Assembly: GCA_004335835.1 (NCBI GenBank)
Contig: RWJK01001560.1
Location: 106,586 to 170,585 of the forward strand
Length of the DNA stretch: 64,000 nt
From: Scenedesmus sp. ARA3
Taxonomy: Eukaryota > Chlorophyta > Chlorophyceae > Sphaeropleales > Scenedesmaceae
Direction of reading: 5' to 3'
Shown here: positions 9,307 through 63,370 of the stretch, piece by piece
Numbering within the stretch: the stretch's first letter is position 1
Layout: each line of letters opens with the position of its first letter
Program-made: the position numbers and the translations under genes
Notes under the pieces: model-generated
Database searches by the model: none
What the model was told of the DNA's origin: nothing
What the model saw: only the letters and a program-made list of their open reading frames with translations

Positions 9307-9435
9307 TGTTTTGGGTGAAGTACGGATGGTGAATGAAGTACGGATGGTGGGATGAAGTACAGTTGGTGGGTGAAGTACAACTGGTGTGTGGAATACAGAT
9401 GGTGCATGGAGTGCGCTTGGTGGGTGCAGTACATT
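9307..9435 (+). repeat. Degenerate minisatellite, about seven units of 17-19 bp
   Basis: Units follow the pattern GTGAAGTACGGATGGTG with frequent substitutions (TGAAGTACAGTTGGTGGG, GGAATACAGATGGTGCAT and so on). The decay suggests an old array. Confidence 0.85.
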
Positions 9436-9616: not shown

Positions 9617-9960
9617 ACTTGGCACAAGAGTTCACGGCGGATGGTTATAACGGTTATGACACACAGCTCGTTTTGAGACCTTCACACAAACGCATGTTGG
9701 GGCATGACATGAGCATTGCGCTGGCACAGCCGGGACATGCCAGCTGCATGTTGGCAATGCTTCTTGAGTATAGGCCCGGCAGTTTGTTACTTGGCACAAG
9801 AGTTCACGGCGGATGGTTATAACGGTTATGACACACAGCTCGTTTTGAGATCTTCACACAAACGCATGTTGGGGCATGACATGAGCATTGCGCTGGCACA
9901 GCCGGGACATGCCAGCTGCATGTTGGCAATGCTTCTTGAGTATAGGCCCGGCAGTTTGTT
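9617..9960 (+). repeat. 172-bp tandem duplication
   Basis: The segment beginning ACTTGGCACAAGAGTTC at 9617 is repeated from 9789 with a period of 172 bases. I see one substitution (GAGACC versus GAGATC), so the duplication is recent or homogenised. The unit carries no recognisable gene. Confidence 0.95.
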
Positions 9961-35800: not shown

Positions 35801-38800
35801 TGTTCAAACCACCAGCAGCAGGGGAGCATCCTGCGACGTCTCTCACAGGTCCTGCTAACACAATCTAAAGTGATGGGTGCTTATGCTTTGCGGACGTGCC
35901 ACTGATGCAACAAAACGTGCAATCCCAGCATCCAAAGTTGATGCCGAGGCCTGTAGCGGTCCAGCCTGCAGTTAAAACGATGTAAAAACGATGCGGGTGC
36001 TAGATTATCGCGTCTCCGAGCAATGAACAGCGATAACTCGGAATTGCACGCTGAATTCGCTTGACATACTGACATTGTCATGCTCACTTTTGAAATTTAC
36101 CTCATGATCATGGACATGACAATGTGGATACATACATTCACCATGTATGTTATCCGGCAGGGCTTTAAGAAAAGCAGAGCAGAGCAAGTTCAAGTTGACT
36201 GCAAGCAATGTGGCTAGCCCAGCCTGAGCTGTTGCCTCCGGCTGTGGACCATCAGATTGCCAGTGGCACTGGCACATAGGTGGCACCCACGTGCACATCA
36301 CTGATGAAGCTGTTAAGGTAACTCTATACAGAAATGCAGGTAACACATCGCAGCAGCATTGTTGATGCAGCATATTGCGTCACTCACATGCCTAGAAGTG
36401 GTGCTGACAGTGCCCCCCAAAGGCCGCGTGGCACCATGTCTCGACAACAACAGATCTGTTGAACCGCAGTTGTGACTCGTGTGTTGTTGCACCAAGAGGC
36501 AGCAGCGCACAACACGTGTCTGATGTTGTACACGTTGATATCAGTTGGCACCTTCAAACACGCCATCCAGCTGCGATTAAAAGACGCTGTGCATGTGCAG
36601 CCAAAGCCCAGGTGGAACTTCCTGTAAAAACACAGGACGCCAGCCCCCACCGCACTCTGACCGCAGCAGAGCCTGCCAGCACAGCCACTGCTGGCAGCCA
36701 GCACTTCCAAACAACACGGCACAGCATGCCAGTCGCACCAGCCGCACTAGCACGCACTTTCACCGGAGTGTAGAGCACATGGGCAGTACATATGCGCACG
36801 TGTCCTGCCTGATCTTAGAGGCACTACCGTCACCAACATGATGCATGATGCAGGTCAGGTGCCAACAGGTGAAACCGCTACAAGCAAATGGCAACAAGCC
36901 GTACGTGTACTCCACCACCCGAGGTTGGCCTTTTGAATACAATAGCAGATACTCAGTAGGCTAGCACCGGGTCAGTGCTGGTTGCTAGTAGCAAGATTCT
37001 TGAGCACTGCACCCTTTCAGCTGCAGCAACAGCAGACCACAGCTGCATGGAAGCTGCGAGTCCCGCAACACGTAGAACCTGCATATGCATCAGCCCAGCG
37101 CTGCTGGCCTGAAAATAGCAGTGGTGCTAGCACATGCCAGAGCTCGACAGCAAGTGCGCCAAGTCCTCCGACACCAAAGGCTAAATCAAGCCTGGCACGA
37201 CCAAAGGCCGAAACCAAGTCTGGCAGCATCAAACGGCTGAACCAAGCCTGACCACACCTAAGGCCTACACCACAGTCTGGCATAACCGAAGGGCTAAACC
37301 AAGTCCTGCAACACCAGAATATAACCAAGTCTGGCACGACCAAACGCCTAAACCCAGCCTGGTAACACCCAAGGCCTGTTCCAAGTCCTGCAGCACCAAG
37401 GTCTATACCAAGTCTGGCACCACCAGAGGACCAAACCAAACCTAGCAACCCTAAGGCCTGAACCAAGCACCCTCAATGCCTCGACCAAAGGCTCACACAA
37501 CCACAAGCCAGTTCCTGACAAGTTGTGCTGCTCACTCTGTTATGTTGCAAGCACCCCGCGCAGTAAGTAACAACACAACCAGGACGTGACAAATAGAACA
37601 CAAAATCAGAGCCGCGCATGGCATGTACTGATGCTAGTCAACAGTATGTGATGAGACAGCCATATTGCCGAGCAGGCAGTCACCCAGCAGAGCACAGGCT
37701 ATGGTTTGCAACCACAAACATGCAAAGCAAGGTTAATCAGCAAGCGAGCAGCAGCAGCAGCAGCAGCACCAGCAAAGCGCTGCCCTTATCACAATGTCAT
37801 GGTGTGCTGCCCGCACTATAAGCATCCGCTATGTCACTCAACACAAGCTCCTCTTCGCTGAGCGTCATGTGCTGTGCAAGTTCACTTTCAGGTGTAAGCA
37901 GTCCCTTTCATTCTGGCAGAGTGCAGGAGGATCCCAACGCCCATGGCTGTTCACAACCATCGCTGATGCTGGCGGTTGAAAAGAAACAACCAGCAGAACC
38001 AGAGCTAGACCCCAACATCCAAATCCACAATGCACAGCAGGAATCAGGCACACAACACAAAAGCAAGCCCCGCAGCAGTGCAAGCGTGCAGCAAGCGTGA
38101 GCACACAGTGCACCATTGCCAAGTTGCAGGTGCTTCGCATTACTAATGGTGTCGAAGCAACAACCAGCACTGAGCTCAGCAGCCAGACAAGGGGGCCACT
38201 GCCGCACATGTGTGTCGCATACTGCCAGTGCCACAGCAACTGTTGGCTTGTGTGCAGCTTGCTTGGCTCACTGCAGCAGAACAGCAGATGCACAGCTCAA
38301 GGCAGCCAGCGCAAAGCTAGTCTGAGGCAGAAGACAGTTTTCGCTGCAGGCAGGGAAGCCACAGAGCCAAAGAGAGGGACAACAAGAAAGTGAGCAGTGC
38401 TACACAAATGGCTGCAGCAGCATGCTGCAGCAGAAGCACAGTTAGCAAGACGGCGCCGTACATGGCTAAGCAATGCATGTACCGCATCTGACAATGCAAC
38501 GCAAGCCCACGCATGCTCCCTGTCACTCCCAAAAGTGCGCTCCAACTTTATAGCAGAGACAAGCAGACGCTTCTTCCCAGCACCAGTCAGCAGCAGCCCA
38601 CACGCGTGCAGGCCTCCAGTTCGCACCACATAACATGCCCGTTCATCAGCAGCCGTGCTGAATGGCACTGCTCAATGGCAAAGCAGGCACCCCCAAGAGT
38701 TGCAACGCGCCCTCGGCAAGGCAGGAGCTCAGCTTGCAATGCACAACCCCAACAATCCAGTGCACGCGCACTCAACCATGAAGCAGCTTGCAGCTTGCTG

Positions 38801-39166: not shown

Positions 39167-41752
39167 TCACAACTCGCTGATGTTGCACACCTCCAGCTTC
39201 TTGCGCACCAGCGACGCCCGCTTTTTGGAGAACACCGTCGGCTGGTGGCGCTTCACATACCTCAGCCCATGCTGCTGCTGCTGCTGCTGCTGCGAATGGT
39301 CGAGCTCCAGCATCTGCTGCTTGTGCATCTCAGAAATTGTCAGCCCGTATGTGGTCCAGTTCACAGGGTACGCCAGCAGCACCATCAGCCGAGCCAGCTG
39401 CGGTACCTCCAGCACGCCGCCAAGCAGCTGACCCACACCCATCTTGATCATCGCATCCTTCTGCAGCAGCACACTCAGGCGCGCTAGCTTCTGCGCCTTG
39501 GCGTCAGACTCCGTGAGGTGCTTCAGCATGCTGCTCAGCGGCTGCACCTCCGCCTCAGTCACCCTGCTGTTGCTGCCGCCGCTGCCGCCGCTGCCGCTGC
39601 TGCTGCTGGAGGTATCTGCCATGCTGCGGCCGCCGTAGATCCCAAAGGCGTTGCTGCTAGCGCCAGCGCCGGCGCCGGCGCCAGCAGTTGTGCCAGCCGG
39701 CTGCAGGCTTAGCTCAATCTGCAACTCCCGCAGCTGCGCAGCAACCGGCGCATAGATGCGCTGGAATACCTTCGTCACGCCGACTGTGTCAGCCACCTGC
39801 TCCGGCGTGAGCTTGATCTGCTGCAGCGCCCAATTGTAGCGCTCCATGTCGTGCTCGGTGCGCGACTTGCCTGTCTCAGGGTTGGCCAGGCAGAAGGCGG
39901 AAAGCACGTGGTTGCGCCCAGCCAAGATCACTGACACCATCATGTGGTTGTGCTGCAGCAGGATGCGTCCCATGCGCTCATATGGGTCTGCCACTGCATC
40001 TGCGCTGTCGGCCTCCTGCTCTGCTGGTGCGTTCGCGCCGTTGCTGCGGGGCGCAGGGGCGTGGCCGCTGCTGCCATTGTCGACTTGGTGCAGCAGCATG
40101 CTCAGCTCGCGCAGGCTCTGCAGAAGGGCGGCAGCAGCAGCAAGGGTTGGCACAGCATGCGTCAGTGCTGCTGCGTGGCGAGAGGTAAAGTGCTGGGTGG
40201 AGCAGTGATGCTGCAAGCATGCATGCATGTATGTGTGTGTGTCTGCTGCAGGACGCTGTGCATGGAAGCGCTGCCACGGTCGCTGCCGTAATCAGGCCAC
40301 AACCAGCCACTGCTGCGCCAAGTATGCTGTGCATGCCAGCTTACTGCTGGGTGTGAGCAGCTGCCAGCCTCCGAGCACGCGTGATGGGACTAAAGCTGCG
40401 GCCCACTGTTGTTGTGAATGTCTGTCTGTCAATGTCATGGTTTCAATGCCAAGCTTTTGCTGCCACGCTGTCATAGCTGTGCCGCAGGTGCCATGCTGCT
40501 GCTGCTGCAGCAGCTGCTGCTGCTGCAGCTGCTGCTGCTGCTGCAGCTGCTGCTGCTGCTGCAGCTGCTGCCAGTGCCTACCTTGGCATAGCGCTGTGTC
40601 AGCTGCTCTGCAGTGATGGTGTGTGCCTCAGGGTGCAGCGGCTGCAGGTGCACAGCCACAAGTGCACAAGTGCACCAGCAGCAGGGCAGCAAGGCAGCAA
40701 GGCAGCAAGGCGTCAGAGGAGAGGACACTGGGCCAGCACGTCCTGGTGTTATATGCAAACAATGCACTGCGCATGGCTTCTGGACAGACCCAGGCAAGCG
40801 TAGCTGTGAGCATGGCAGTGTTCGCATCGCGGCATGTGACAGAACAGATGTTCGCAGCATCAACACATAGACAACAACACGGCCAGTCACAAGAGCCACT
40901 GCTGCTGTGGAAATTAGGGTGGAGGGTTGCCTAGGCCAGCATAACTCCACACTCCACTGTGCGTTGATTGCAGGTGCAACGTCTTTTTCAACACCGATGC
41001 CAGCATGTATGGGCGCTGTCATACATAGGCCGCACCTGTGCCAGCAACCAGCGCAGCCAATACATGAGGTCACCCGGCGAAGCGATGCGCCGCTCTAGGT
41101 TGCTTGCCGCCTCCTCATCCTCATCATCCTGCAAGCCTCTACCCTTTGGCTTTGCTGCTGCTGCTGCTGCTGACCCGCTTCCTGCCGCGTGGCTGTCACC
41201 GCCACTGTACGGCAGGTAGCGCAGCTGATCAAGCAGCAGCAGCTCGCTGGTGTTGCCCAGGAGCGAAGCCAGCGATGGCTGCTGCTTCTGCTTCTGCTGC
41301 TGCTGCTGCTGCTCCTGCTGCTGTTCATCGCTTGCTTTTGCTTTTGTGTGCTGATCTCTCAGCCAGCCCAGCAGGTCGACAAAGGAGACCAGCGCATCAT
41401 GCTGCACGGGGCACCGGGCACGACGACATCAACACAGGACAACACATCAGGTACTCTGTGCTGGCCTACCAGATGCAATGCCATGCAGGCTACAGTACTG
41501 ACACATGCTGTGCCTAACACGCCCTGGTGCAGCTGCTCCTGCAGCTTGTGCCGCTGCTGCTGCTGCTGCTGCTGCTAGATACAGCATGCCCTTGCTGCTG
41601 CTATTTGCGGTTGATGAAAGCGGTTAGAAACCACAACCCACCTGCATTCGCAGCTCCCTCTGCTCTTGTTGCAGCAGAGACACTTGAGACAGCCGTTGCT
41701 GCACTTCGGCTTGCAGCTCACGCAACTCTTTTGCAGAGTCCTTGCGCGGCAT
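39167..41752 (-). CDS. Unrecognised coiled-coil protein, possible regulator
   Basis: Five minus-strand exons, 41752-41642, about 41574-41521, 41401-41036, 40641-40582 and 40117-39167, keep frame 0 throughout and encode about 513 residues. The exact start of exon 2 is ambiguous because it begins inside a CAG run, where every CAG is a possible acceptor. The N-terminus MPRKDSAKELRELQAEVQQR then LSQVSLLQQEQRELRMQ is a heptad-like coiled coil resembling a leucine zipper without an obvious basic region. A helical core follows (SFVDLLGWLRDQHTKAKASD; PGDLMYWLRWLLAQ; AEQLTQRYAKSLRELSMLLH; MGRILLQHNHMMVSVILAGR; PVNWTTYGLTISEMHKQQML), with Ser/Gly, Ala/Gly and Gln inserts. The end is basic (KRHQPTVFSKKRASLVRKKL). 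A transcription-regulator role is a guess from the architecture; no named domain is recognised. Confidence 0.8.
40494..40571 (+). repeat. (CTG)n/(CAG)n compound tract in an intron
   Basis: Blocks of CTG interrupted by single CAG triplets repeat about every 15 bases between exons 4 and 5 of the 39167-41752 gene. On that gene's sense strand it is CAG-rich and lies just inside the intron after the donor at 40581. Confidence 0.85.
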
Positions 41753-48337: not shown

Positions 48338-51242
48338 ATGAAGTGCCTGACCCACACGTCTTCGACATGCTCGGTGAAGCCTTTCACACATAGCGGCAGC
48401 TCGATGCTGCCAGTGCGAGTGAACGTCAGGCGGTCCACACCAGCACCTGTCACCCGGCAATTGCTGCAGCATCAGAGGTGAACAAGGCAGTTTGCATGCA
48501 TAGTTCGCATAAGTTCATGTCGCTTACTGAGAGCTGCCGCCCTGCACAGCAATGGCGTATGTTGGGATGGCAGAGCAGCAGCAGCATGGCAGCAGTACCG
48601 ATTTCAGATGTAATGGCAGCATGGCCAAGCAGCCTCACTACCTCCAGTAGGCTTTCCAGCATAGACCTTCCACAGATGAACCCATCTGGGCACCAATGTG
48701 CTACCAGCAGCACTGGCGTCATGTAGTATGACAGTTGCCCTGCGCCGTGGCTGTGTGCTGGGTGCGGTTGCTGTGCCTGCGCAGCCCACTGCAGCAGCGG
48801 CTAGCTCCCCTGCAGGCCAAGAAGCAGGCGGCTGAGGCAGCTGAGGATGTTGACCTGGACATGGTGGCGCTGGAGGCGGAGTCAGATGCGGTGAGCCAGC
48901 AACGCAACTAGGTAGATGTGTACTCAGCATGCCACACTCTTTGTTACAGAGCCTCGCACTAGAGATGCTGGCAGAGGTGCTGGCAGGATGCTGGTGGAGC
49001 TGCTCGCAGGAGTGGCACTGAAACTTGGAGATGTTGGCAGACTAAGCAGCTGTTATCAGGACAACAGTGAGAGCAGCCAGACGCCTGCCTGCAAGTCTGA
49101 CTGCAGAGCTGCTGGTTGCATGCATGCGCAACTGCACAGTTTTGCAACGGCTGGTGTTGCCAGCATCAGCGTGGCTTGTTCCAGCTCTGCTGTCAACCAG
49201 CTTGTTTGTGTCACGGCGCGCATGCCTGCAGGAGGAGCGCATGCAGAAGGCTGTGAGCGTGGTGGCAGACAACTTCAACACCATGCGCACGGGCCGCGCC
49301 AACCCAGCCATCCTGGACCGCATCCAGGTGCGGCACCAGCACAACAGCAGCAGCAGCGGCAGCAGCAATAGCGGCAGCAGCAGCACCAGTCCGGTCAGCG
49401 TCTCAGTGACTCTGGCATGTAGTCGGCAAAGACGTGCAGTTGGCAGTACAGCCCGCAACCTTGTTTAGGCCTGAGGGGCAGCAGCAGTGCGCAGCCAGCC
49501 TTGCAGTTCGCAGCAGCCCGTGATGGAGCCTGATGAGAGCTTGTCCGCCAGCGCTTGCCAAGCTCTCTTCTTACCCTTGTTTTGTCAAAACCCTGCATCA
49601 AACCGCGGAACTGCTTCTTCTATGCCACCCGTCACCACACCATCCACGCCGCCAGGTCGACTATTACGGCGCCCCACGCCCATCAAGAGCCTCGCCTCCA
49701 TCGCTGCTGATCTCTCAACCCATCCAACCCTCAACATTGTAACTGTTTCTCCCGCACCTCACCCAACCCAACCACAGCCAGGTCGACTATAACGGCGCCC
49801 CCACACCCCTCAAGCGCCTCGCCTCCATCGCTGCTGATCTCTTAACCCTTCCAACCCTTCACCTTGCAACTGTTTCTCCCGCACCTCACCCCACCAAACC
49901 ACCGCCAGGTCGACTACTACGGCGCGCCCACGCCCATTAAGCCTCGCTTCCATCTCTGCCAAGCTCTTCATCCATTCAACCCTTAGCTTTGCAACTGCTT
50001 CTCTGTCCCTCTATCCGCACACCACACACCACCCACACCGCCAGGTCGACTACTACGGCGCGCTCACGCCCATCAAGAGCCTCGCCTCCATCGCTGTGCC
50101 TGACGCCAGCACGCTGACCATCACGCCTTTCGACAAGGGCAGCATCAAGGACATCGAGAAGGCGCTGAACGAGTCAGACATCGGCATCAACCCCAACAAT
50201 GATGGCCAGAAGATCCGGCTCGTCATCCCGCCCATGACACAGGTGGGGGGCAGGGGCGCTGCTGGAAGGAGTTTATTGTTTGCTCCGCTCTGTGGGGGTG
50301 CAACAGCTGGCAGGTAGTAGCGAGGACGTCTGACAGCGCGTGCAGCAGCTGCCTGGCAGTGGTTTGGCGTAGCACTTGGTACTCTGATGTGAGGTGGGGG
50401 CACTGCATTATGAGACGGCCAGAAGATGCGGCTCGTCATCCTGCCCATTGCGCAGGTGAAGGGTGCAGCACTTGAGGCTGCAGGTGGTGTGTTGTGGCAG
50501 CTGTGTAGACGTGCAGCAGCTGACAGGCAGCAGCGTGGCATGCGATGGGTAGCAGCAGGGGGTCGTGCACGGCACAAGTTGCGTGTTTTGTACTTGGTGC
50601 TGTGCTCTGCTGCTTGCTGTGCCTGGGAGGTTTTATGACCGTAGTCATGGGTCTGCCAGTAACTGCGCAACATAATGTTTTTTTGCTGTCAGCAGCATGC
50701 TTGTGCCACTGTCATCACCTGCTGCTGCTGCTGCTGCTGTGCTCGCCTTGCAGGACCGGCGCAAGGAGCTGAGCAAGAAGGTGTCCAAGATGGGTGAGGA
50801 CGGCAAGGTGGCGGTGCGCAACGTGCGCAAGGACATCCTCAAGCGCCTCGACAAGTGAGGCGCTGCTTGCACTGTTTCTGTCTACAAGCCACTGCTTTCT
50901 GTGTATGTGCAAGTTTGGTGCGTGTTTGTATCTGCAAGGTGTTTGTACACTGTGTACCCGCCGCAGTCTAGTGTGGGGTTGGATTGCTCCTTTGCTCTTA
51001 GCGCCCTGGCATTCCTGTCTGCTTGTGTGGCATGAATCATTTACCACTGCACAAGCTACACATGCCAGCTGTCCTCAGGCTGTCGCTCGTTTTGATTGCT
51101 GTTGTAACGCATCTTCAGGTACGACTTCCCCAAAGACACCAAGAAGGACCTGGAGGACGGCATCCAGAAGCTGACGGACGGCTTTGTCAAGAAGCTGGAT
51201 GAGATGGTCAAGGCCAAGAGCGACGACATCATGAAGGTCTGA
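48338..51242 (+). CDS. RRF: Plastid ribosome recycling factor
   Basis: Six exons give 254 residues: 48338-48477, 48785-48890, 49232-49327, 50045-50242, 50754-50854, 51119-51242. The factor splits post-termination ribosomes with EF-G. Exon 1 is a transit peptide beginning [20 protein letters not shown]; its phase 2 end fits exon 2 exactly, giving ...[16 protein letters not shown]. The RRF body has the long-helix start [32 protein letters not shown], then [60 protein letters not shown] and [19 protein letters not shown], all family hallmarks. The conserved Pro of the YYGxP loop (inter-domain hinge region) is Leu here (codon 50063-50065). Intron 3 contains three partial copies of the start of exon 4, and intron 4 one copy of its end. 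A TGTAA lies 78 bases after the stop. Confidence 0.94.
49656..50080 (+). repeat. Four tandem copies of the RRF exon 4 acceptor region
   Basis: Each copy begins CCAG|GTCGACTA, with exon-like starts at 49656, 49782, 49909 and the real exon at 50045 (spacing 126, 127, 136). The copies include 30-45 coding bases and the pyrimidine-rich intron end. Copy 1 lacks one base and copy 3 several, so both are frameshifted; copy 2 stays open for about 20 codons. Confidence 0.95.
50195..50455 (+). repeat. Duplicated 3' end of RRF exon 4 with its donor
   Basis: GGCCAGAAGATCCGGCTCGT with the donor at 50243 recurs as GGCCAGAAGATGCGGCTCGT with a donor at 50456 (spacing 213). The following intronic sequence, including a GGCAGGTAG-like segment, is also recognisably copied. 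Confidence 0.9.
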
Positions 51243-52664
51243 GCAGCAGCAGCAGCAGCAGCAGCAGCATCAGTGGCAGAAAAAACAGCAGGGGTGGCAG
51301 TGGTGCAAGGCGATGCTCATGTAACAGCGCGTTGGCAGCATGCTGGTCGCATCGGCAGCAGTCGGTGTACGTGCACGGCGGCAGAGCAGGCTCAGCGCTA
51401 GCCGGTGCATGTGTATGCTGACATGGTTATGGAGAGAAGAGTTTGCACAATGCAGTGCGAATGCAAGTCCCGCCCAGGTGATGCATCATGCATCGGTTGC
51501 ACTTGCACATACCCTTGAGGAAAAGCTTGCACGTCTGAGGGCTGGTACTGCAGCGCGCTGCAGCAGGTTTGTTTGCTGCCGCAGCGCCTGTGCGGCTAGC
51601 CTGCAGTTGCGCTAGGCTTGGTGTTGCGCGTGCACTGCTCCCTGAGTGCTGCCGGCACACCTGGGTTGGGTCCTAGCCTTGCGGACAACCCCGAGCTGTG
51701 CAGCATGCAGGTGGAGGCGCACCCGCTTGACGAACGCACCATGCCGCTTTGCAGAGCCTATCATAGGCACAGTATGCGTTCACGCACCATATGATGCATG
51801 GCGGCACAGGCTCTGAACCCACCAGATTGAGACTGCTTGCGCTTGTCCGTTGGGGGTTGTCTTTGTTGTGTAAGTTCTGTGTACACTATCATGCATGGTC
51901 TTAAAGTCTCAGCACAAAATACTGCTGAAACGGCGCCCAGCGCGTCACTGTTACAACGCCATTCGGAAGACAGTATGTATCATGTTACAATCAGCAGCGA
52001 CCCTAGCTGACTGTACAAAAAACATTAGGTATTCAACATCACCAGGCCTTGACAAAACAACGCCGCAGCGCACAACATCCAAGTCCTACAGCCATACAAA
52101 TACAGGCTGGTGTGAGGCTGGAACGCACACAGCTGGCGGTCCATTTGGGCACTTGCAAGTGCTCAGAGTACAGCGGGTAGATATGATGGACGGTGCCCGA
52201 GCCCCTTGCATGCCTGTGCTGCAACAACACAGCATGTGCATTTACCATGCCTAAACTTTATTTGAATTTGTCATTTTACAGCATGTACCGTCATGTACCC
52301 AACATCTTCATCCAGGTAAGGGTCGCCAGAGATCACCAGCTGCAACAGCAGCCGATGCAAGAGGTGCTCTCCAGTCATCAGCGCACTACACCATGGTGTA
52401 CATCTGCTCAGGTAAAAGAAAAAAAGAAGCGCCGGACGCATGATGCTGAGGCACTCGTCAAGTACGTGTACACCCAGCCGCCCCTTCACCAACTCGACAA
52501 CATGTAGCTGCAAAAGCAGCTGAAAGTTGATACATGTACAGGCACCAAAGTGCTGCCAGCGCTGCAGAGCTGCATGGCAGCATACGCTGCACAAGCAGCG
52601 TCAACTCCTCAAGCCCCACACAGCAATTCCATCCCACACACCCACACACCAGCAGCGCCCACAC
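51243..52664. other. Intergenic between convergent genes, 1.4 kb
   Basis: It contains the 3' UTRs of RRF (+) and the MFS gene (-), a (CAG)8-9 tract right after the RRF stop, and otherwise no recognised feature. Confidence 0.5.
51320..51324 (+). terminator. Candidate algal polyadenylation signal TGTAA
   Basis: It lies 78 bases after the RRF stop codon, just beyond a (CAG)n tract at 51244-51269. Motif and distance fit; not otherwise tested. Confidence 0.5.
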
Positions 52665-55600
52665 TCAATGATACACCGCCACACCCGTGTCGCTGCCACC
52701 TCCCCACGTCTTTGCCATCGCCTTGTCCTTTGCATAAAAGAAGTGCAGCACTGTGTAGAACACCAGGCACAGGCTCCACGGCAGTGCCATGCAAGCCAGC
52801 AGGCTGCTGCCAAGTGCTGATGCATTGTGTGCTCGCAGCTGCTGGTCCTGCAGGGCCTCATCACTCAGGGATCCGCTGAAGCCAAAAGCTCGCTCAGCCA
52901 GCAGGCCAACCACGGGTGCGGCGCAAGCGGCGATGGAGTTCTCAAAGGACCTGGCAACAGCAGGAGCAGCAGCAGCAGCAGCAGCAGCGGCGGCGGCGGC
53001 GGCGGCAGTATGAGAAGTAGCGACAGGAGGCAGGGGGGTGAGAGACAAGCAGAGGCACAGCAGCCGCATGCCGCACAATGCGCCATATTTTTGTCTCTCA
53101 GCGCACACCAGCAGCCACAGCCAAAGATTGTCCAGGCGCAACAGGTATATGCATGCACCAGCATGCTCACCAAGGGCACTGTTCGGTCTCACCTGTAATG
53201 GACTCACCACCACAGGAACACACCACAACAACCCAGCAGCAAACACCCCAGCCAACACCACTTCACCAGCCACACCTGCAGCTGGCCTCACCTGTCAAAC
53301 GCATAGACGGCGGAGCGCTGAACACTGCAGAATCCAAGCAACGCACAGAGCCAACGCAACTTCAAAATCCCAGCAACAGCAAAGGCAGCAACACTTTGTG
53401 GCCTCACCTGTCAAACGCACAGATGGTGGAGCGCAGCTCGTCAGGCACAATGGCTCAAGCCACTGCAACATTCCAACAGCAGCAAATACCAAGGCCACTG
53501 CACGACTTGTGTGTTGAAAGACGCTGCTGGGCCTCACCTGTCGAACGCATATATGGTAGAGCGCAGCTCGTCAGGCACTATCTCCGCAAAAATCGGGCTG
53601 TTGCAGCCCGCACCAGCCCATGTACACGTCAGCCCCATGACAAACATCACCACGCCATATGCCACAGGAGTGGCAGCTAAGCTGCTACTGGGCAGGCCCT
53701 TTAGCAGCAGCCAGGTCAGTGGGATGCCGCAGAACACGGAGATCTGTGCGGTTAGGATGCGGCCGTTGTTGGGTAGGCGCTTCGCCATACGGTCGCCCAC
53801 TGCACCGCCCAGCAGAGCGCCCTGTGAAACACAGCAGAAGACGATCCCAGCGCAGAAGCAGCAGCAGCAGAAGCACTGTAAGAGTGGGCTTATGAGTATT
53901 TTTTCACTTTGCAGCAGCTTCTGCAGCGTGCAGCATACAAACATCCCAGGATCATCTGCAGATTTCATGCAGTGCACCGGGGGCAGACGGGCAGGATACG
54001 CCGTGAGCAACACTGTACAACCGCCCACAAGCACCAGCCACCAGCAACGCCAATCAACACGTCCCTGCTGCCTTCAGTTAGCGTTGCTGCTTCCAACAGC
54101 ACCCAGCCAGCACGACAGACCCAACCACGGCACGAACCCATGCACAGCAAAAAACCGGGTTTAACACGCACCCCAGCCACGCCTGCGCCAAACGTTGCCA
54201 CCAGCAGGCTTGCTGTGGTGTCGTTGAAGCCTGTGAGCTGCAGCCACAGCGTGAAGAAGACCATGGCCTGCCAGGGGAAGCAGCCCACGATGCCCTGCAG
54301 CACGATGGCCTGCACGCCAGAACGGCACAGCATGGCGCAGCACGGCATAGCACGGCGCGGCACAACAGTCAGTAGACAGAGGTCAGTCAGCAGCCACTGG
54401 ACATCAGTGTAGGAGCTGTCAGAGGGAAATACATGTCAGGCCGGAGCCAGAGTGCTGAGCTGTTGGCAAACACTAGCATGCACTCAGCAGCAGCAGCAGC
54501 AGCAACCACCAGGCAGGAGCTGCGATCGCAGCCACACAGCTGTTGACAAGCTGGCCAGACATCCAGCAGCAGCAGCAGCAGCAGCAGCAGCGCCGAGGCC
54601 TCACCTGGAAGGTGCGGATTTGCAGCATCCAGCAGATGTCTGCAACCACGCCCCGCTTGCGGCCCTTGAAGCGGCCCCGCACATCCACAGGGCTATCACC
54701 ATCACCACCAGCAGCAGCAGCAGCGCCTTTCAAGACAGCAGGCCCCAGGGTGCTGTGGTCATGCTGTTGCGAGTGCTGGTGGTGGTGGTGGTGCTGCTGC
54801 TGCTGGCTGCCGTACTCGTGTGCTGAGGTGATACTGTGCTGGTTGGCCAGGTCGCTTTTGAGATGTGGCTGCAGCAGCTGCTCGCCAGCTGCAAGAGAAA
54901 GACACAGCAGCACGGCGCACAGATACAGTATGTCAAACAGCGCGCTACGCAATTGTGGCATGTGACAGCACCAACGCAGGCGTTCTCTGACAACATCTGA
55001 CAATCATTGTGCAGTAGCGATATCAGCATTCCAGCGATTGTGGTGCCTGCATTTGCACTGTGCGACCGACCTTCACCCACATGTAACTTCCCTCTATCTT
55101 CACGCAACCGCAACAACGCATACATCTGTGACATCAACCTGTAGCATAGCAACGGAAACAAGCCACCCCCACCAGCCGTTGCTTTTTCATTTGTGACTGC
55201 CCCTCACCTTTGCCATTGACGGCCACCGCCACATGGTGGGGCCTGAACACCAGCGCCCTGCTGCTGCCCCCAGCAGCAGCATCATATACATCAAGCCCTG
55301 GCTGCGTGTCACTCTGCCCACCACCAGCCTCGCCAACCAGCCTGCTGCTGCTGCTACTGTCCTGCATCCATCCCTGGCTGCGGCTGCTGCTGCTGCTGCC
55401 GCCGCCCGCATGCTTCTGCTGCAGTGATCGCCGCCTGTCAAGCAGCACACCAGCCATACCAGGCAATGCACTGCCACCTCCAGCAACCCAGCCGTTTGCA
55501 CCTGCTACTGCACCATCCCTACTGCTGTAGCTACTATAACCAATGTCAACATCATCACGGGCACTGCTGGCAGCAGCAGCAGCAGCCGCAACATGCTGCT

Positions 55601-57613
55601 GCTGCTGCTGCTGGGGGCTGCTAGGTCTGTCGGGGCTCCTAGTGAGCAGGCTGGCCACGTCAGCAGCAGGCAGCAGGCTGTACGGTAAGCCACGCCGCCG
55701 AGGGTCTGAGGCAAACAGCAGCGCCAGGCCACCTGCGCGGTGCGACACAGCAGCAGTGGCATTGTGCGTGTGAGCAATTGTGGTGCAAGCTGCCAGCCAG
55801 CAGGACTGTGTCGTGGAGGCAGTGCGCCGTACACAACTTGGAGCTGCACCTGCTGCACCACCACCACACAGCCCATGGCATTCACCCATAGTTACCCACA
55901 AACAGCGCTCAGCAGCACGATGCGGTATCTGCGACTACTAGCAGCAGACCCCAACACCAGCAGCAGCAGCAGCAGCAGGAACAGTTGCACTGTAGCAGCG
56001 CCGCTTCGCACTCACCCACGATCAAGCTGAGCAGCGCAATGCAATGAAAAGCCGCCCTCCACCCGTCAATGCCCAGCGGCCGCAGCCCGCCCATATTTGT
56101 AGCAAACACGCCTCCCAGCATGCCCCCTAGGCTTGCAGTCAGCTGCAGCGTGCCGAAGGCCCTGCCGCGCTGCTCTGCTGGGTACAGGTCAGCGATGAGG
56201 GACTGGCAGCAGGGCACCAGCAGTGCCAGGCCCAGGCCGTTCACGCCAGCAAACATCATGGCCTGCAGGTGCGTGCAAATGCGGCGCAAAATGCACATGC
56301 CTGCGTGTTGGGGGAACGTTTGGGTAGGCACAGCAGGCCGGCGGCACATAGCATGGCAAGGCATGGAGGCATCAGCGCAGGCCCATGAGGCTGCCGCTGG
56401 ATGCAACGCTGCATGCAACGGCGCAAGGGGACATGCCAGCAGCAGCGCTGGTTACGGGCTTCACACATGACGGCGCACCAGCAGCAGCGCAGCTACACGC
56501 ATTGTGAGCCTAGTCTTGCCGCACACTCGCACCCCGCTCACAACCCACCCAGGCCCACACGGCCGCCCGCCCCACCTGGTGCAGCGTGACAGTGAGCGCC
56601 ATGACGCTGGTCATGATGCCCCAGATCCGCACAATCAACAACACTGCATACAAGCAGTTCTAAGGTCTTGCCTCCGCTCCACCCCACCTGGTGCAGCGTC
56701 ACGGCAAGCGTCATGGCAGCAGCATAACAACACCAGCAGCACACACACACACGCACCTGGTGCAGCGTGACTGTGAGTGCCATGGCGGAGGTCATGATGC
56801 CCCAGATGAAGGCGCCAGTGCTCAGCACAGCCACGCGGTTGTAGCGGTCACCCAGGATGCCGCTCAGCGGGGAGGCCAGCGTCTGCAGCAGCAGCAGCAG
56901 CAGCAGCAGTGGCAGCAGCAGCAGCAGCAGCGGCGGCGCCGGCAGCAGCAGCAGCGGCGGCGGTGGCGGCGGCGGCAGCAGCAGCAGCGCAGAGATAATC
57001 AAAGGTGTTGCATGAGCAGGAGCAAGTACTGCTGCTGGCCAGCAACCTGGCGCGCCTTGGCCGCTACAACTTATGATACTCTATTACTGCAATGCACATG
57101 CACATTGGTTGCTGCTGCTGCTGCTGCTGCTGTTGTTGGCCTGCGTATACACCACGCCCCACGCACCTGCACCATTGCCCTGCACAGTGTCAGCGTGCCC
57201 AGCTGCACTGGCGTGGCATTCAATGAGCGGCCCACAAACAGGTACACTGCCGGCAGCACCTGCGCATTCACAATATACAGCACAGCAGGGCCAGCCAAGA
57301 GAGTGAAGGCTAGGACAAAGGAGCAAAGGATGACCTGGCCAGATGAACAAGTTCATACCTGTAGACAGATGCAAATCAATTCAGGCATACTACTGTCATG
57401 GCAGTGACGCTACCTCTGGAACAGCATGCAATGCATGCTGTGCATGCTTGTAGCCTGCCCAACCGCATCCAACTGCTGCTACTGCTGCTGCTGCCGCTGC
57501 TGCTGCTGCTGCTGCAGGCGCACCTGCTCGTTGGCCTGCTCCACCACCATAGCCAGGTTGACCAAGGCTACTGTACGCAACCGGGCATTAGGGACGCCTG
57601 CCATGCCTGTCAT
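52665..57613 (-). CDS. Major facilitator superfamily transporter, plant UNE2-like
   Basis: Nine minus-strand exons give 685 residues in one frame: 57613-57524, 57259-57167, 56882-56757, 56262-56016, 55732-55208, 54888-54605, 54294-54172, 53821-53538, 52950-52665. The first half has TLTLCRAMVQ, then SPLSGILGDRYNRVAVLSTG (the MFS loop 2-3 signature) and FAGVNGLGLALLVPCCQSLI, ADLYPAEQRGRAFGTLQLTA. The second half has GALLGGAVGDRMAKRLPNNG and VPDELRSTIYAFDRSFENSI. These match a plant family around Arabidopsis UNE2 (At1g78130), whose substrate is not known to me. The two halves are separated by a 250-residue loop rich in Ser, Gly, Gln and His runs (exons 5-6), far longer than usual. An alternative acceptor at 57335 would add 25 in-frame, strongly hydrophobic residues to exon 2. 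The protein is a multispanning membrane protein; the membrane cannot be told from sequence. Confidence 0.92.
53281..53570 (-). repeat. Three copies of the MFS exon 8 donor region
   Basis: Read on the gene strand, the real exon end (donor after 53538, coding STIYAFDR) is followed in the intron by two copies with donors after 53408 (STICAFDR) and 53292 (SAVYAFDR). Spacings are 130 and 116. All keep GACAG|GTGAGGCC. Confidence 0.93.
56573..56800 (-). repeat. Three copies of the MFS exon 3 donor region
   Basis: The real exon 3 end (donor after 56757, coding ALTVTLHQ) is followed by copies ending at 56688 and 56576, each with CTGCACCAG|GTG. The farthest copy keeps about 55 coding bases (GIMTSVMALTVTLHQ-like), the nearer about 35. 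Confidence 0.93.
56886..56995 (-). repeat. Triplet tract (sense CTG/CCG) before MFS exon 3 acceptor
   Basis: On the gene strand this is a 110-base run of CTG and GCC/GCT triplets ending directly at the CTGCAG acceptor of exon 3. Confidence 0.85.
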
Positions 57614-58433
57614 GGTGCTGCCTGCAGCGGACAAGGGCAACAGCAAACCTGTGAGCTTACAGAGCTTTTGTAACAGCTTTGCAGGGAAGCCACAGCTCCG
57701 CTGTCATGTTGTGGGCCTCAGCACACTGCTAGCTGAACTGTGTTGCAATGTAAACTGCAGCAAAAGCGCCTTAGCGCCCAACAGCACCATTGGAGGCAAG
57801 ACACAACACACAGTGCCTGTCCAACACAAGGAACATTGGCTAGCTCAATACCACCCATGCAGAGCCCATGTACGCCCAGCAGCAGAATATGTTGCACAAC
57901 TGACCGTTTCTCACCTTCAATTCAACGTCAAGAAGCCAGATGACCCTGCACCAGCGCGTGAGCGCCCGTCCTATACGGACAGGCCGAGACCGCGCGCGGC
58001 AGGGTGCCCAGAGCTCCTCAACCTCACTATCTATCCTACATACGCTGCAAAACCAGAAGATCGAGCGACTACATCACTAGAGAGAGCTTGCACATGAAGT
58101 GCCTGAACATATGACTCAAGGTGCATCGTTTGCGCAGCAAGCAGGTTCCATTGGTCTTGATCGTCTTCAATGGAGTATTGAAGGCCTTTTACAGTGTGCT
58201 GGCACGATCCAGACTCTGTTACGCTAACGTTGGTACTTTTCCTTGCAGACAACATCAGCTTTGGAGCAAGCTGTTTGCTTTAGATGTAAAAAACCTAGAC
58301 CATAAGCTGTCTATCGTACCTACATGATCAGGAACGTCAACTCTGTCGAACAAGGAGAGCAGAGCACAGCTGACATACACAAAGTCCGTCTGCTTATGCT
58401 GCAGACGGCTTGAAACGCAGCAAACCTAGCATA
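57614..58433. promoter_or_regulatory. Shared 820-bp region between divergent MFS and TGD1 genes
   Basis: It lies between the start codons of the minus-strand transporter and the plus-strand TGD1 gene, so both promoters are expected here. GC content drops compared with the genes. No specific element recognised. Confidence 0.5.
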
Positions 58434-59929
58434 ATGCAGCCGTCTAGCTGCTTGCCTGGACAGCAGCGGCACTGCAAGCTCAGCAGCAGCAGCAAAAGCA
58501 GCAGTAGGCAGCAAGCAGCAGCAGTAGCACGTGTGCGGCAACGGCCGCCACTGCTGTTGTGCCCAGGACATACACAGCAGCAGCAGCAAGTTATATGTAG
58601 GCAGCAGAGTGCAGCAGTAGCACAGGATGATCCGGGCGAGGGGGAGGCCATGGGTGAGTGCCTGCTGACAGTACAAGTACTGCCTACACAAGAAAGCAGC
58701 CTCGTTGTTGCAGACTGTTGTGCCTCCTCCTTTGCAACCGAGCAGCAGAGTGCAGCTGGATTTTCTCTCCTGTGTTGGCTGTTGCTGCCTGCTACAGCCA
58801 AGATTGGAAGCAGCAGCACTCCGCTCGCCCTGTTCCCGGCACCTTGGCTAACCTTGCAGCTGATCACAGCACGCATTCCACATATATGCGCCCTAGTTTC
58901 CTGCGAGCTCATGTGTTTCCCCCTGTGCTGCCCGCTGCTTGTTTGGTGCTGGTTGCAGCCACTGTAGAGATGATAGAGATGGCCAGCAGCGCCGCGCCGC
59001 CGCTGCAGATGCTCAACCGCTTCAACGCGCCGCGCTGGCTGTTCCGCACAGTGGCCTGCCTCATCCTGGGGGGGCAGGTGGTGTCGAGGATATGCAAGGG
59101 TGCGACCAGCAGCAGCAGCAGCAGATGCAGGGAGATGCAGATGCAGGCACAGATGCAGCAGGCACAGCAGCAGCAGCAGCAAGAGGCGGGGAGATGCCAG
59201 TATGTTACAAAAGCATACGCGCTTTAACAGCTAGCGTGTGGCTGAACAGGCTGTCACACACACAGGTCGTACACTGTACGCGGATAGCAGGAGCTGGCAT
59301 GTGCTGAACGCAGCAGCAAGCTCCGATCTGCTTGTTCTGTCCCACGCGCTAGGCAGCAGCAGGGCCGGGTGACTGGTGCACACCCCACCACGCCAGCAGT
59401 AGCACACCATCAATGCTCTGACATTGTCAACACGCTGCTGCTGCTGCTGCTGCTGCTGCGCCAGGCAAGATCCACTGGCGCAACACTCGTGACCAGCTGC
59501 AGCTGGTGGGGCCCAAGAGCCTGGGGGTGGCGCTGCTCACGGCCGGCTTTGTGGGCATGGTCTTCACCATCCAGGTGGGAGCAGCAGCAGCAGCAGCAGC
59601 GGCAGCAGCACGCGCTCAGCAGCAGCAGCGACAGCGCCACCACAAGCCCAGCGGCAACAGCAGCAGAAGTAGCAGTGATAAGTTCTTTTGCAACAGTGGC
59701 ACAACAGGTGTCCCATGTGGTACCACGGCCGTGCTGCAGGCTGTAGCAGCATGTGGGTGCAGCAGAAACACAGCAGGGGAGTCGGCGGGGACACGAGATA
59801 ACAGCTGGCTGTCAGCAATGCAGCAGTTTCCAAGTGTCTGCCCGTGAAGCAGCTATTCAGCAGCAGCAGCAGCAGCAGCATTGCCACACCAGCGCTAGCG
59901 CGGCACACCTGTTGCGTCTGCAAGGTGCC

Positions 59930-59975
<46 letters not shown>

Positions 59976-62106
59976 CCTACCCCACTGCCCCATGATAGCA
60001 CATGCAATGCTGATGCCAGCACCCTTCACCCCGTCTGCTGCTGCTGCTGCAGTTTGTGCGTGAGTTTGCCAAGCTGGGCCTCACCCGCAGTGTGGGCGGC
60101 GTGCTGGCGCTGGCGCTGGCGCGCGAGCTGACCCCTGTGGTGACTGCCATCATCCTGGCTGGCCGCGTGGGCAGCGCCTTCGCAGCAGAGCTGGGCACGA
60201 TGCAGGTAGGCGATGACGCGCTGCTGTTGCGCGTGCACAGCAATTGGTTTCTGCAGCGATGCAGAGCTGTATGTAGAGCTGGGCACGATGCAGGTAGGTG
60301 ATGACGCGCTGCTGTCACGCGCGCACAGGAATTGGTTTTTGCAGCGATGCAGAGCTGTTTGCAGAGCTGGGCACGGTGCAGGTGACTGGCGAAGTGCTGC
60401 TGTCGCGTTTGCATAGGGGTTGCGACAGTGCAGAGCGGCATGCTGGGGATGCTGTAGGTGCTGCAGAAGCTGGGCACCATGCAGATGCTAGTTTGCAGTA
60501 GGATCCTATTAAGCATATACATTGCAGCTGTGGGGTGTTTTTCTGCTGCCTTCTGCTGCCGGCCCTCTGCTACACTGCTGCTGCTGCTGCTGCTGCTGCT
60601 GCAGGTGTCAGAGCAGGTGGACTCGCTGCGTGTGCTGTTCACGGACCCTGTTGACTACCTGGTGACGCCCAGGGTGCTGGCCTCCATGATTGCGGGGCCC
60701 ATCCTCAACGTGCTCTGCTTCTGCATGGGTGAGCGAGGTTCTGGTTCCTCCTGCTGCTGACACACCTGTTGCTGAGGCTGTCTTGAACATGTTGGTGCTA
60801 GGCTGCATGGCTGACTGGCACCGCCATGGGCCCCGCAGCTTCACTGGCGTGATCGCCTGGCCCTCGGCCGCCTGCGACTGGCCTGCGGCTGTTCCCAGCC
60901 CACCTATGCTCTGCAGACGTGTCGCCTGTGATGCAAACCTGCTAGGCATGGATTGATGTCATGCTGCACTTGCGCTGTTGCGCTGCAGGCATCGGCGCCT
61001 TGGTGCTGTTGGCCGACCTGGTGTATGACATGGCTGCAAACACTCTGCTTTACAACCTGATGTATGCTGGATTGGTTTGATCTCATGCTGGCTGGCTGTG
61101 CAGGCATCGGCGCCTCAGTGCTGCTGGCGGACCTGGTGTATGACTTGCCTGCAAACAGTCCACCTTGAGATCTAGTGCTGGCTTGATGTGGCCACATGCT
61201 TGGTGTTTGTTGCACTGCAGGCATTGGCGCGTCAGCGCTGCTGGCCGACCTGGTGTGGGATGTGCCTGCTTGCAAATGCTCTGCCTTGAAGCCTAATGTT
61301 TCAATAACTCATGTCTTGTAATCGTATGCTGGCTGTGCAGGCATTGGTGCCTCGGTGCTGCTGGCGGACCTGGTGTACGATGTGCCCGCCAACGTGATCC
61401 TGGACAGTGCGCGGCGCGCGCTGAGCGGCTATGACGTGATCACCAGCTGCATCAAGGCCTGGGTCTTCGGGCTCATCATCAGCACGGTGAGTGAGGGGGC
61501 AGGATGCAGCAGGCTGGAAGTTGCAAGTACTGTGTTGCCAGCACTGTTTGCTCTGTGGGGGCCTGGGCTGACTCTGCACACCTGGCTGGGTGTTCGGGCT
61601 CATCACCAGCACGGTGCGGCGGCAATAGGATGTATGCCTGCAGCAGGCTGCAGCAATGTCTGTTGGGCATGAGCCAACCCTGCACTGTGAAATCGCAGTA
61701 GACGTCTGTGTGGTTATGAAGAACCCCATTGCGAGTGGCACGACGTCATTGATGCATGCAGCGAGCGTACGTATGCATCCAGCTTCAGCCTGTGCCTGCC
61801 GGTGTTGGCTGGCTGATATCAGCCTTACAGGCCAGTGAGCAGGCAGCAGATGCAGGCCGCCCCAAAAGCACCCAAACGTATGTCTTCCTGCTGCCTAGCT
61901 GCACCGTGTTGCTGCATGTTTTGCCCCTGTGCCACCTGCAGATCAGCTGTGCGTGGGGCTTCACCACCAGTGGTGGCGCCAAGGGTGTGGGTGAGAGCAC
62001 CACCAGTGCCGTGGTGATCAGCCTGGTGATGATCTTCGTGGCAGACTTTGTGCTGTCATTCCTGTTCTTCCAGGGCCAGGGCGACGCACTTAAGCAGCTC
62101 AAGTAG
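58434..62106 (+). CDS. TGD1: TGD1-like ABC permease, plastid inner-envelope lipid import
   Basis: Seven exons give 352 residues in one frame: 58434-58653, 58959-59099, 59465-59574, 60053-60205, 60605-60728, 61341-61486, 61942-62106. The protein is of the MlaE/TGD1 permease family; in plants TGD1 works with TGD2 and TGD3 to bring ER-derived phosphatidic-acid-type lipid into plastids. Exon 1 is a Ser/Gln/Arg-rich transit peptide (MQPSSCLPGQQRHCKLSSSS). The conserved body starts FNAPRWLFRTVACLILGGQV, GKIHWRNT, VGPKSLGVALLTAGFVGMVF, then FVREFAKLGLTRSVGGVLAL, ELTPVVTAIILAGRVGSAFA, AELGTMQVSEQVDSLRVL, DYLVTPRVLASMIAGPILNV, and ends AWGFTTSGGAKGVGESTTSA with FFQGQGDALKQLK. These are near-diagnostic for TGD1. 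Three introns contain tandem copies of adjoining exon edges, listed separately. Confidence 0.95.
60118..60381 (+). repeat. Three 88-bp copies of the TGD1 exon 4 donor region
   Basis: GAGCTGGGCACGATGCAG|GTAGG ends at 60205 (real donor), 60293 and, with GCACGGTGCAG|GTGAC, at 60381. The period is exactly 88 and the intronic part (GATGACGCGCTGCTGT, GGTTT-TGCAGCGATGCAGAG) is copied too. Confidence 0.96.
60976..61385 (+). repeat. Four copies of the TGD1 exon 6 acceptor region
   Basis: GCAG|GCATCGGCGCC-type starts lie at 60989, 61104, 61221 and 61341 (the real exon). Spacings are 115, 117 and 120. Each carries about 45 coding bases (GIGAxxLLADLVxD) before diverging into stops, and each has an intact AG acceptor. 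Confidence 0.96.
61458..61650 (+). repeat. Duplicated 3' end of TGD1 exon 6 with its donor
   Basis: TGGGTCTTCGGGCTCATCAT with the donor at 61487 recurs as TGGGTGTTCGGGCTCATCAC with a donor at 61614 (spacing 127). The downstream AGGATG-CAGCAGGCTG segment is also repeated. Confidence 0.92.
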
Positions 62107-62859: not shown

Positions 62860-63289
62860 CACCGAAGCTGACGGCACACCACTTTGCTCCACTGACATGC
62901 AACCATCAATTTTGAACTACGCATTGAGCCATCGCAATAACGCCACTCGACCACGCACCCCACTGGAGCGGCAGGAACTTCCTGCTTGTTTTCAAAACAA
63001 TTGACATGCAAGATGAAACCTTTTTGTCAAAACCACAGCGCCGCTACCCAGAGCACCAGCCCTCCTGTCCCACATGATCATCATGATTGTTGCTGTGTGC
63101 GCAGCCACTGCATTTCACGCGCCCCTGGTGTAAAAGAGAATGCTGTTGGTTGTCATGCTGCTGTCATCAGCAGCATGCACTTCACCCAGTAATACAGCCA
63201 CAGGAGCACCGCCATGCATACATTCTATGCACAAAGGTCGCAGCAATAGGCTGCGGTGGAGGCAGACAGTCATGCACTAGAGGCAATGC

Positions 63290-63370
63290 AATAGAGGCAC
63301 ACAGGGATGCAATAGAGGCACACAGGGATGCAATAGAGGCACACAGGGATGCAATAGAGGCACTCAGTGT
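63290..63370 (+). repeat. 21-bp minisatellite, about four copies
   Basis: The unit AATAGAGGCACACAGGGATGC is tandem and nearly exact, with a diverged last unit (GGCACTCAG). Confidence 0.95.

Follow-up and report, generated by a model that had tools for sequence, protein, structure and literature searches.

The window analysed here, a 64,000-nucleotide stretch of Scenedesmus sp. ARA3 DNA lying at the end of its contig, carries three adjacent genes whose introns contain tandem copies of the neighboring exon edges: the 3' part of a ribosome recycling factor (RRF) gene, an MFS transporter gene and a gene for TGD1, an MlaE-type lipid permease (Table 1). The gene models are predicted, not transcript-based, and come from a simple gene-finding HMM trained on all 294 kb sampled in this study, which returned 40 genes and 465 exons with the splice consensus CAG/GTGAG at donors and CTGCAG/G at acceptors (slash, exon-intron border). 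The part of the RRF gene starting at 50045 matches PF01765 with an E value of 1e-50, and use of the exon-adjacent site yields a continuous RRF domain. In the MFS gene the first half matches PF07690 (MFS_1; E 1.6e-26), with the second half under the curated cut-off. TGD1 matches PF02405 (MlaE) with an E value of 5.9e-72. Its exon set was obtained by selecting the exon-adjacent sites among the calls of the gene finder, and the resulting 271 residues match a Tetradesmus obliquus database protein (P0001), possibly itself predicted, with 100% identity. This identity, observed for TGD1 as the one protein used for the assignment, indicates that the genome is probably that of T. obliquus or a very close relative.

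Table 1. Genes and junction-spanning repeats at the locus (window coordinates; working, the exon-adjacent site; decoys, its copies; spacing in bases)
Feature	Position	Strand	Sites or exons	Spacing
RRF (ribosome recycling factor) gene, 3' part	49232..51242	+	exons 49232-49327, 50045-50242, 50754-50854, 51119-51242	
RRF acceptor, four copies	49636..50096	+	first exon base: decoys 49656, 49782, 49909; working 50045	126-136
RRF donor, two copies	50201..50468	+	first intron base: working 50243; decoy 50456	213
MFS transporter gene	52677..57621	-	nine exons retained of 13 joined by the gene finder	
MFS donor, three copies	53283..53581	-	working 53537; decoys 53407, 53291; all read CAG/GTGAGGC	
MFS donor, three copies	56573..56807	-	working 56756; decoys 56687, 56575	69 and 112
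TGD1 (MlaE-type lipid permease) gene	58979..62102	+	exons 58979-59099, 59465-59574, 60053-60205, 60605-60728, 61341-61486, 61942-62102	
TGD1 donor, three copies	60185..60416	+	working 60206; decoys 60294, 60382	88
TGD1 acceptor, four copies	60949..61393	+	decoys 60989, 61104, 61221; working 61341	115-120
TGD1 donor, two copies	61459..61616	+	working 61487; decoy 61614	127

An earlier, sequence-only reading of the window had reported seven junction-spanning repeats between 49.6 and 61.6 kb, each of two to four copies spaced 69-213 bases apart. Self-comparison (blastn, E <= 1e-3) and a repeat-family search recovered all seven where that reading had placed them, as families D5, D11-D14, D17 and D19, with the same copy numbers and spacings and 21 copies in total. 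The AG or GT is present in 21/21 copies, most of these sites having been located with patterns that contain the site; by eye, a further degenerate TGD1 donor copy near 60460-60485 has lost its GT. At the MFS donor at 53537, the working site and its two decoys are identical across the ten bases scored. The decoy at 60294 was used by the gene finder for TGD1, while the 100%-identical protein is the one read from 60206.

Other repeats occur elsewhere in the window. Between 1 and 47 kb there are three (at 9312, 9617 and 37159), none of which touches a predicted exon, and therefore the contrast drawn within the window by the sequence-only reading holds. The repeat at 9617-9960, which lies in a predicted intron, consists of two tandem 172-base copies with 99.4% identity, and is the most similar of the 22 full-length pairs found in the sample. 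Minisatellites lie at 37159-37468 (unit about 28 bases) and 63286-63367 (unit about 21 bases), and CAG/GCA/CTG triplet runs are very abundant in the exons and introns of the window, for example at 40494-40571 and 56885-56992.

The spread of the feature was followed in a non-random sample of 294 kb of the 87.3-Mb genome (0.34%), consisting of 170.6 kb of the window's own contig, 60 kb from a contig reached via RRF, 10 kb picked through an AAA match, and 53.6 kb from six contigs chosen by number; 230 kb of this lies outside the window. The implication that the three genes are special did not survive, as 51 further arrays, 45 of them touching an exon, were found in the 230 kb outside the window. 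Self-comparison of the full 294 kb detected 61 local duplications: 49 span the end of one exon, three touch two exons, and nine touch none. Twenty-nine lead from an exon into the following sequence, two of them across a stop codon and not a donor, and 20 lead from an intron into the following exon. Exons are touched on both sides at L029:1727-2058 and L019:283-606, where the gene finder takes a decoy for the start of an exon and the structure is uncertain. Clustering by region is moderate (52 arrays in 30 segments weighted by introns; chi2 55.2 vs a null mean of 29.0, p = 0.006).

The same conclusion is reached by an edge test that involves no array calling, in which 50-base exon edges were searched against introns and a match was defined as a score of at least 40. 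A copy of the edge was found in the adjacent intron in 44/615 cases, or about 7% (17/311 for 5' edges, 27/304 for 3' edges), vs 4/446 in the opposite intron (1/222 + 3/224) and 1/301 for exon middles (Fisher p ~2e-7 and ~3e-7, respectively). Exon edges matched random introns in 1/3954 comparisons. The sequence-only reading had also suggested that the copies lengthen introns, and indeed, in introns no longer than 1000 nt, 12,523 of 118,924 bases belong to detected arrays. In introns free of border arrays, internal copies were detected in 6/1007 50-mers and in 3/219 introns.

The arrays have a narrow geometry. The smallest periods in the sample range from 59 to 394 bases, and 37/49 border-spanning arrays have a period of 87-141 bases, vs 1/9 intronic ones. 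In most border arrays with a period of 150 bases or less the unit comprises roughly 20-80 exon and 40-110 intron bases; the exon part has a median of 47 (5-95%: 21-77), and fewer than 40 intron bases are present in only 2/49. This copy-by-copy description includes seven of the 49 arrays (C1172:73632, C1172:74475, L028:7958, L028:4651, L017:1482, L019:654 and L027:7890) that were excluded from all decoy-level counts given below (GT/AG retention, codon divergence, indels and frame, site scores, decoy-decoy comparison), their junction being misassigned or lacking a splice site.

Of the explanations of the border-spanning arrays, one holds that duplication is blind to exon borders and selection acts on the products, and another that duplication is aimed at the borders. 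We prefer the first, with a probability of about 0.58. It proposes that head-to-tail duplications of short stretches, most of them about 90-140 bases long, recur in the genome irrespective of splice sites, probably arising by fill-in and end-joining of staggered breaks. Duplications within coding sequence would usually be harmful and lost. Those across one coding/non-coding border would leave the message unchanged, provided that the exon-adjacent copy keeps its intron-side signals and is used. Because selection on the protein would hold one copy, border-spanning arrays would stay recognizable longer than purely intronic ones, while the extra copies would be decoys decaying neutrally. In acceptor duplications a separate branch point and tract would have to be present in the exon-adjacent copy, and each of the 20 acceptor arrays has an intron part of at least 41 bases. 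On the donor side 27/29 arrays keep at least 60 intron bases; as the branch-point argument covers acceptors only, this counts against the explanation.

Such a filter involves no splice-site aim, and it predicts the same duplications at stop codons. Of the predicted coding 3' ends, 2/21 are copied in the 3' flank, a rate similar to that of splice edges (44/615; p = 0.66); among predicted coding 5' ends, a copy in the 5' flank was found in 0/17. One of the two stop-codon duplications (C1172:73632-73779) lies in a phospholipase D gene, and the alignment of the predicted protein with PLD alpha 1 extends, at the C-terminus, to the final residue of PLD alpha 1; the other (L028:7958-8210) lies in an RRP40 gene matched over residues 17-209 of 221, with about 12 residues remaining on each side. 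The stop-codon evidence thus consists of two cases, one of them partly CAG-rich. Duplication of borders that have no splice site, at a similar rate, favors border-blind duplication. Arrays were also ordered by age, restricted to pairs whose alignment covers 90% or more of the period (22/61 arrays). The ratio of border-spanning to intronic arrays is 1:2 at identities of at least 90%, a class with three members, 9:2 at 80% or more, and 19:3 at 65% or more; the border excess increases with age, in keeping with the prediction of differential decay.

The alternative closest to the sequence-only reading is that duplications start preferentially at exon-intron borders, for example because transcription or splicing exposes DNA to breaks. 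It draws on the observed border-spanning share of 49/58 (0.84; the two stop-codon cases counted in, the three two-exon arrays left out), on the narrow geometry described above, and on the rarity of copies confined to introns. Border-blind duplication was simulated for comparison. With equal mutation rates, 0.41-0.48 of the detected arrays spanned a border; with introns decaying up to three times faster the share rose to 0.55-0.72 (0.48-0.68 when at least 15 aligned exon bases were required); with an exponential size distribution, mostly with limits on the intron part, it was 0.17-0.68. The observed value lies above every simulation, with p = 0.02 against the most favorable one (0.72). With exons masked, 25/34 arrays still found are border-spanning, partly through decoy-decoy matches. 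The difference in period between border-spanning and intronic arrays and the lack of duplicated coding 5' ends (0/17) likewise count against border-blind duplication. Taken by itself, the equal-rate simulation would suggest a decisive junction bias; once faster intron decay and limits on size and signal are allowed for, the expected share varies between 0.17 and 0.72 depending on assumptions, and the simulations are therefore used as proof of neither reading. The suggestion of a process that duplicates exon-intron junctions thus keeps the support of a border excess that simulations under-predict, and is weakened by the 2/21 coding ends at which a stop-codon border was duplicated without a splice site, by the absence of junction bias among the youngest arrays (1:2, though only three exist), and by the need of a working acceptor for some intron part in any case. 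On balance we consider junction-directed duplication unlikely. Similarly doubtful is its stronger form, in which duplication aimed at exon-intron borders, with a unit of about 115 bases (about 45 exon and 70 intron), would be a main intron-lengthening force and arrays in which as many as seven intact acceptors compete with the working one would show that sites are chosen by pairing across exons, not introns.

A different possibility is that the decoys are themselves selected for a role, for example as regulatory decoy sites or alternative exons. The sequence-only reading had noted that the AG or GT is kept while the coding part of the copy decays, and the site is indeed intact in 73/77 decoys. 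It is unchanged from the working copy in 72/77, vs 310/377 control GT/AG dinucleotides in the same decoys (the two sets of 77 differ slightly in selection rule, the former count requiring that a GT or AG be present and the latter that it match the working copy); this excess is modest and no formal significance is attached to it. Divergence of decoys from working copies is 0.076 at codon position 1, 0.054 at position 2 and 0.161 at position 3, and 0.175 in the intron part. With codon positions 1 and 2 at 91-94% identity to the working copy, retention of the AG or GT needs little special force. An in-frame stop is present in only 3/79 decoys, and indels are few in their exon parts (31 events per 3891 bases) vs their intron parts (331 per 3751), a gap that exceeds that of neutral simulations. 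Both observations count against reading the decoys as neutral, and coding constraint on decoys was considered on their account. It was rejected on comparing decoys with each other: in the 19 multi-decoy arrays, the ratio of decoy-decoy to decoy-working divergence is 1.64 (95% CI 1.41-1.88) at codon positions 1 and 2 and 1.00 (95% CI 0.80-1.27) at position 3. An excess at positions 1 and 2 and not at position 3 is as expected if decoys are neutral copies around one constrained, exon-adjacent working copy. Moreover, the exon part is frameshifted in 19/79 decoys, distances to decoys are spread over the three frames (28/24/25 for 0/1/2 modulo 3), and use of the decoy would give an in-frame open insert in only 4/77. 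A selected role for the decoys is therefore improbable.

We regard as very improbable that the arrays record new introns, gained either by tandem duplication of AGGT-containing exonic sequence or through mobile introners. One array, L020:8080-8386 (C1250), in a gene that is WD40-like by eye, does have the AGGT layout: the end of the intron copies the end of the upstream exon with CAG/GT, making it a candidate AGGT-gained intron. In the AGGT model the unit is wholly exonic and the new intron lies between two copies of the site, whereas the seven window units hold intron and exon around one junction and each locus is all-donor or all-acceptor. The window arrays and others inspected each copy a single junction that was already there, together with the intron sequence flanking it, apart from L020:8080-8386 and two unclear two-exon arrays; the sequence-only reading had already remarked that the copies differ from AGGT-type gain in sitting at existing junctions, and this is confirmed. 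Introners would place similar sequence in many unrelated introns, and the 1/3954 matches to random introns at a score of at least 40 therefore indicate no shared element. Nor do the arrays resemble tandem exon duplication or mutually exclusive exons, each window unit covering one exon border and 19/79 decoys in the sample being frameshifted. An assembly artefact is scarcely credible: tandem repeats are hard for short reads and the assembly is in 1567 contigs with N runs, but the copies bear private substitutions and indels, the working exons encode intact conserved proteins, and collapse would hide copies rather than create diverged ones.

The arrays were also compared with known systems. Tandem duplication from staggered breaks has been established experimentally (PMC5730883; Schiml 2016 through PMC5103219) and produces small head-to-tail copies of adjacent sequence, to which repeated rounds add further copies; the algal arrays are likewise head-to-tail adjacent copies of tens to a few hundred bases (69-213 in the window, 59-394 in the sample). 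In contrast to the experimental duplications, which were induced by paired nicks, most algal breakpoints are too old to reveal the repair route; only three arrays are at least 90% identical over the unit. In potato RdRp (PMC4974935), a tandem duplication over an intron-exon border likewise includes branch site, acceptor and exon start, but the outcome in potato was a new intron, made by recruiting a cryptic donor from sequence that had been exonic, whereas the alga's copies remain decoys within an old intron, many times over the sample. The Rogers/Hellsten AGGT model (via PMC4974935) shares the head-to-tail copy that adds AG or GT sites and leaves the protein unchanged; unlike its units, those of the alga straddle an existing junction and yield no new intron, bar the candidate at L020:8080-8386. 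For neointrons of Daphnia (PMC4202315), break repair was proposed for intron growth and some direct repeats are shared with the adjacent exon, but the exon-shared repeats are 4-12 bp long while algal units, mostly of 90-140 bases, contain the exon edge together with its splice site. The direct repeats compared in PMC11782384 also lie close to exon-intron borders, the comparison there being between the two ends of one intron and the repeats 4-30 bp, and the tandem repeats counted close to the ends of introns of Chlamydomonas and Volvox (PMC3887541) are border-near but are discussed mainly as short motifs; in the available text of these two papers we found no description of copied exon edges with decoy sites. 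Judging from titles and the openings of abstracts, with most subscription journals outside the scope, we found no earlier report of arrays of copied exon edges on this scale.

The arrays bear on how splice sites are chosen. With a site-score matrix built from 359 donors and 366 acceptors, all outside arrays, 35/73 intact decoys equal or exceed the score of the working site, and such a decoy is present in 23/39 arrays. At the four-copy TGD1 acceptor, the ranks among genuine sites are 0.63, 0.36 and 0.56 for the decoys vs 0.35 for the working site. In the PFK gene (L017:5605-6657), eight decoy acceptors in units of about 117 bases, seven with the AG intact, precede the working one. Read past all eight decoys, PFK matches a Scenedesmus PFK (a database entry, possibly predicted) with 97% identity across the full 415 residues; the best relatives listed are Scenedesmus species, and no T. 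obliquus is named among the 120 matches listed. Because decoys are as strong and yet the conserved TGD1 and PFK proteins come from exon-adjacent sites, local site strength cannot be the whole rule of site choice. The simplest rule would favor whichever site lies closest to the exon, as in exon definition, which suggests that splice sites in these genes are paired across exons. A study of Volvox argued, on the basis of intron length, for splicing by intron definition in Volvox and Chlamydomonas (PMC4378016); a shortest-intron rule would choose the decoys in these arrays.

In summary, the feature is real and spread over the sampled genome, and ordinary tandem duplication with selection explains it best, though part of the excess at junctions is left unexplained. 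The mean intron length in T. obliquus is 462 bp, vs 230-302 in four other green algae (Table 1 of PMC5966456), and the arrays are a visible route of intron growth. Several decoys were called as exons by our HMM, and gene finders are readily misled by them, a matter of consequence for annotation. Provided that the sampled 0.34% is representative, and it may not be, thousands of natural competitions between near-identical splice sites would exist in the genome. The arrays thus provide a large natural experiment on splice-site choice, in which exon and intron definition are directly testable.
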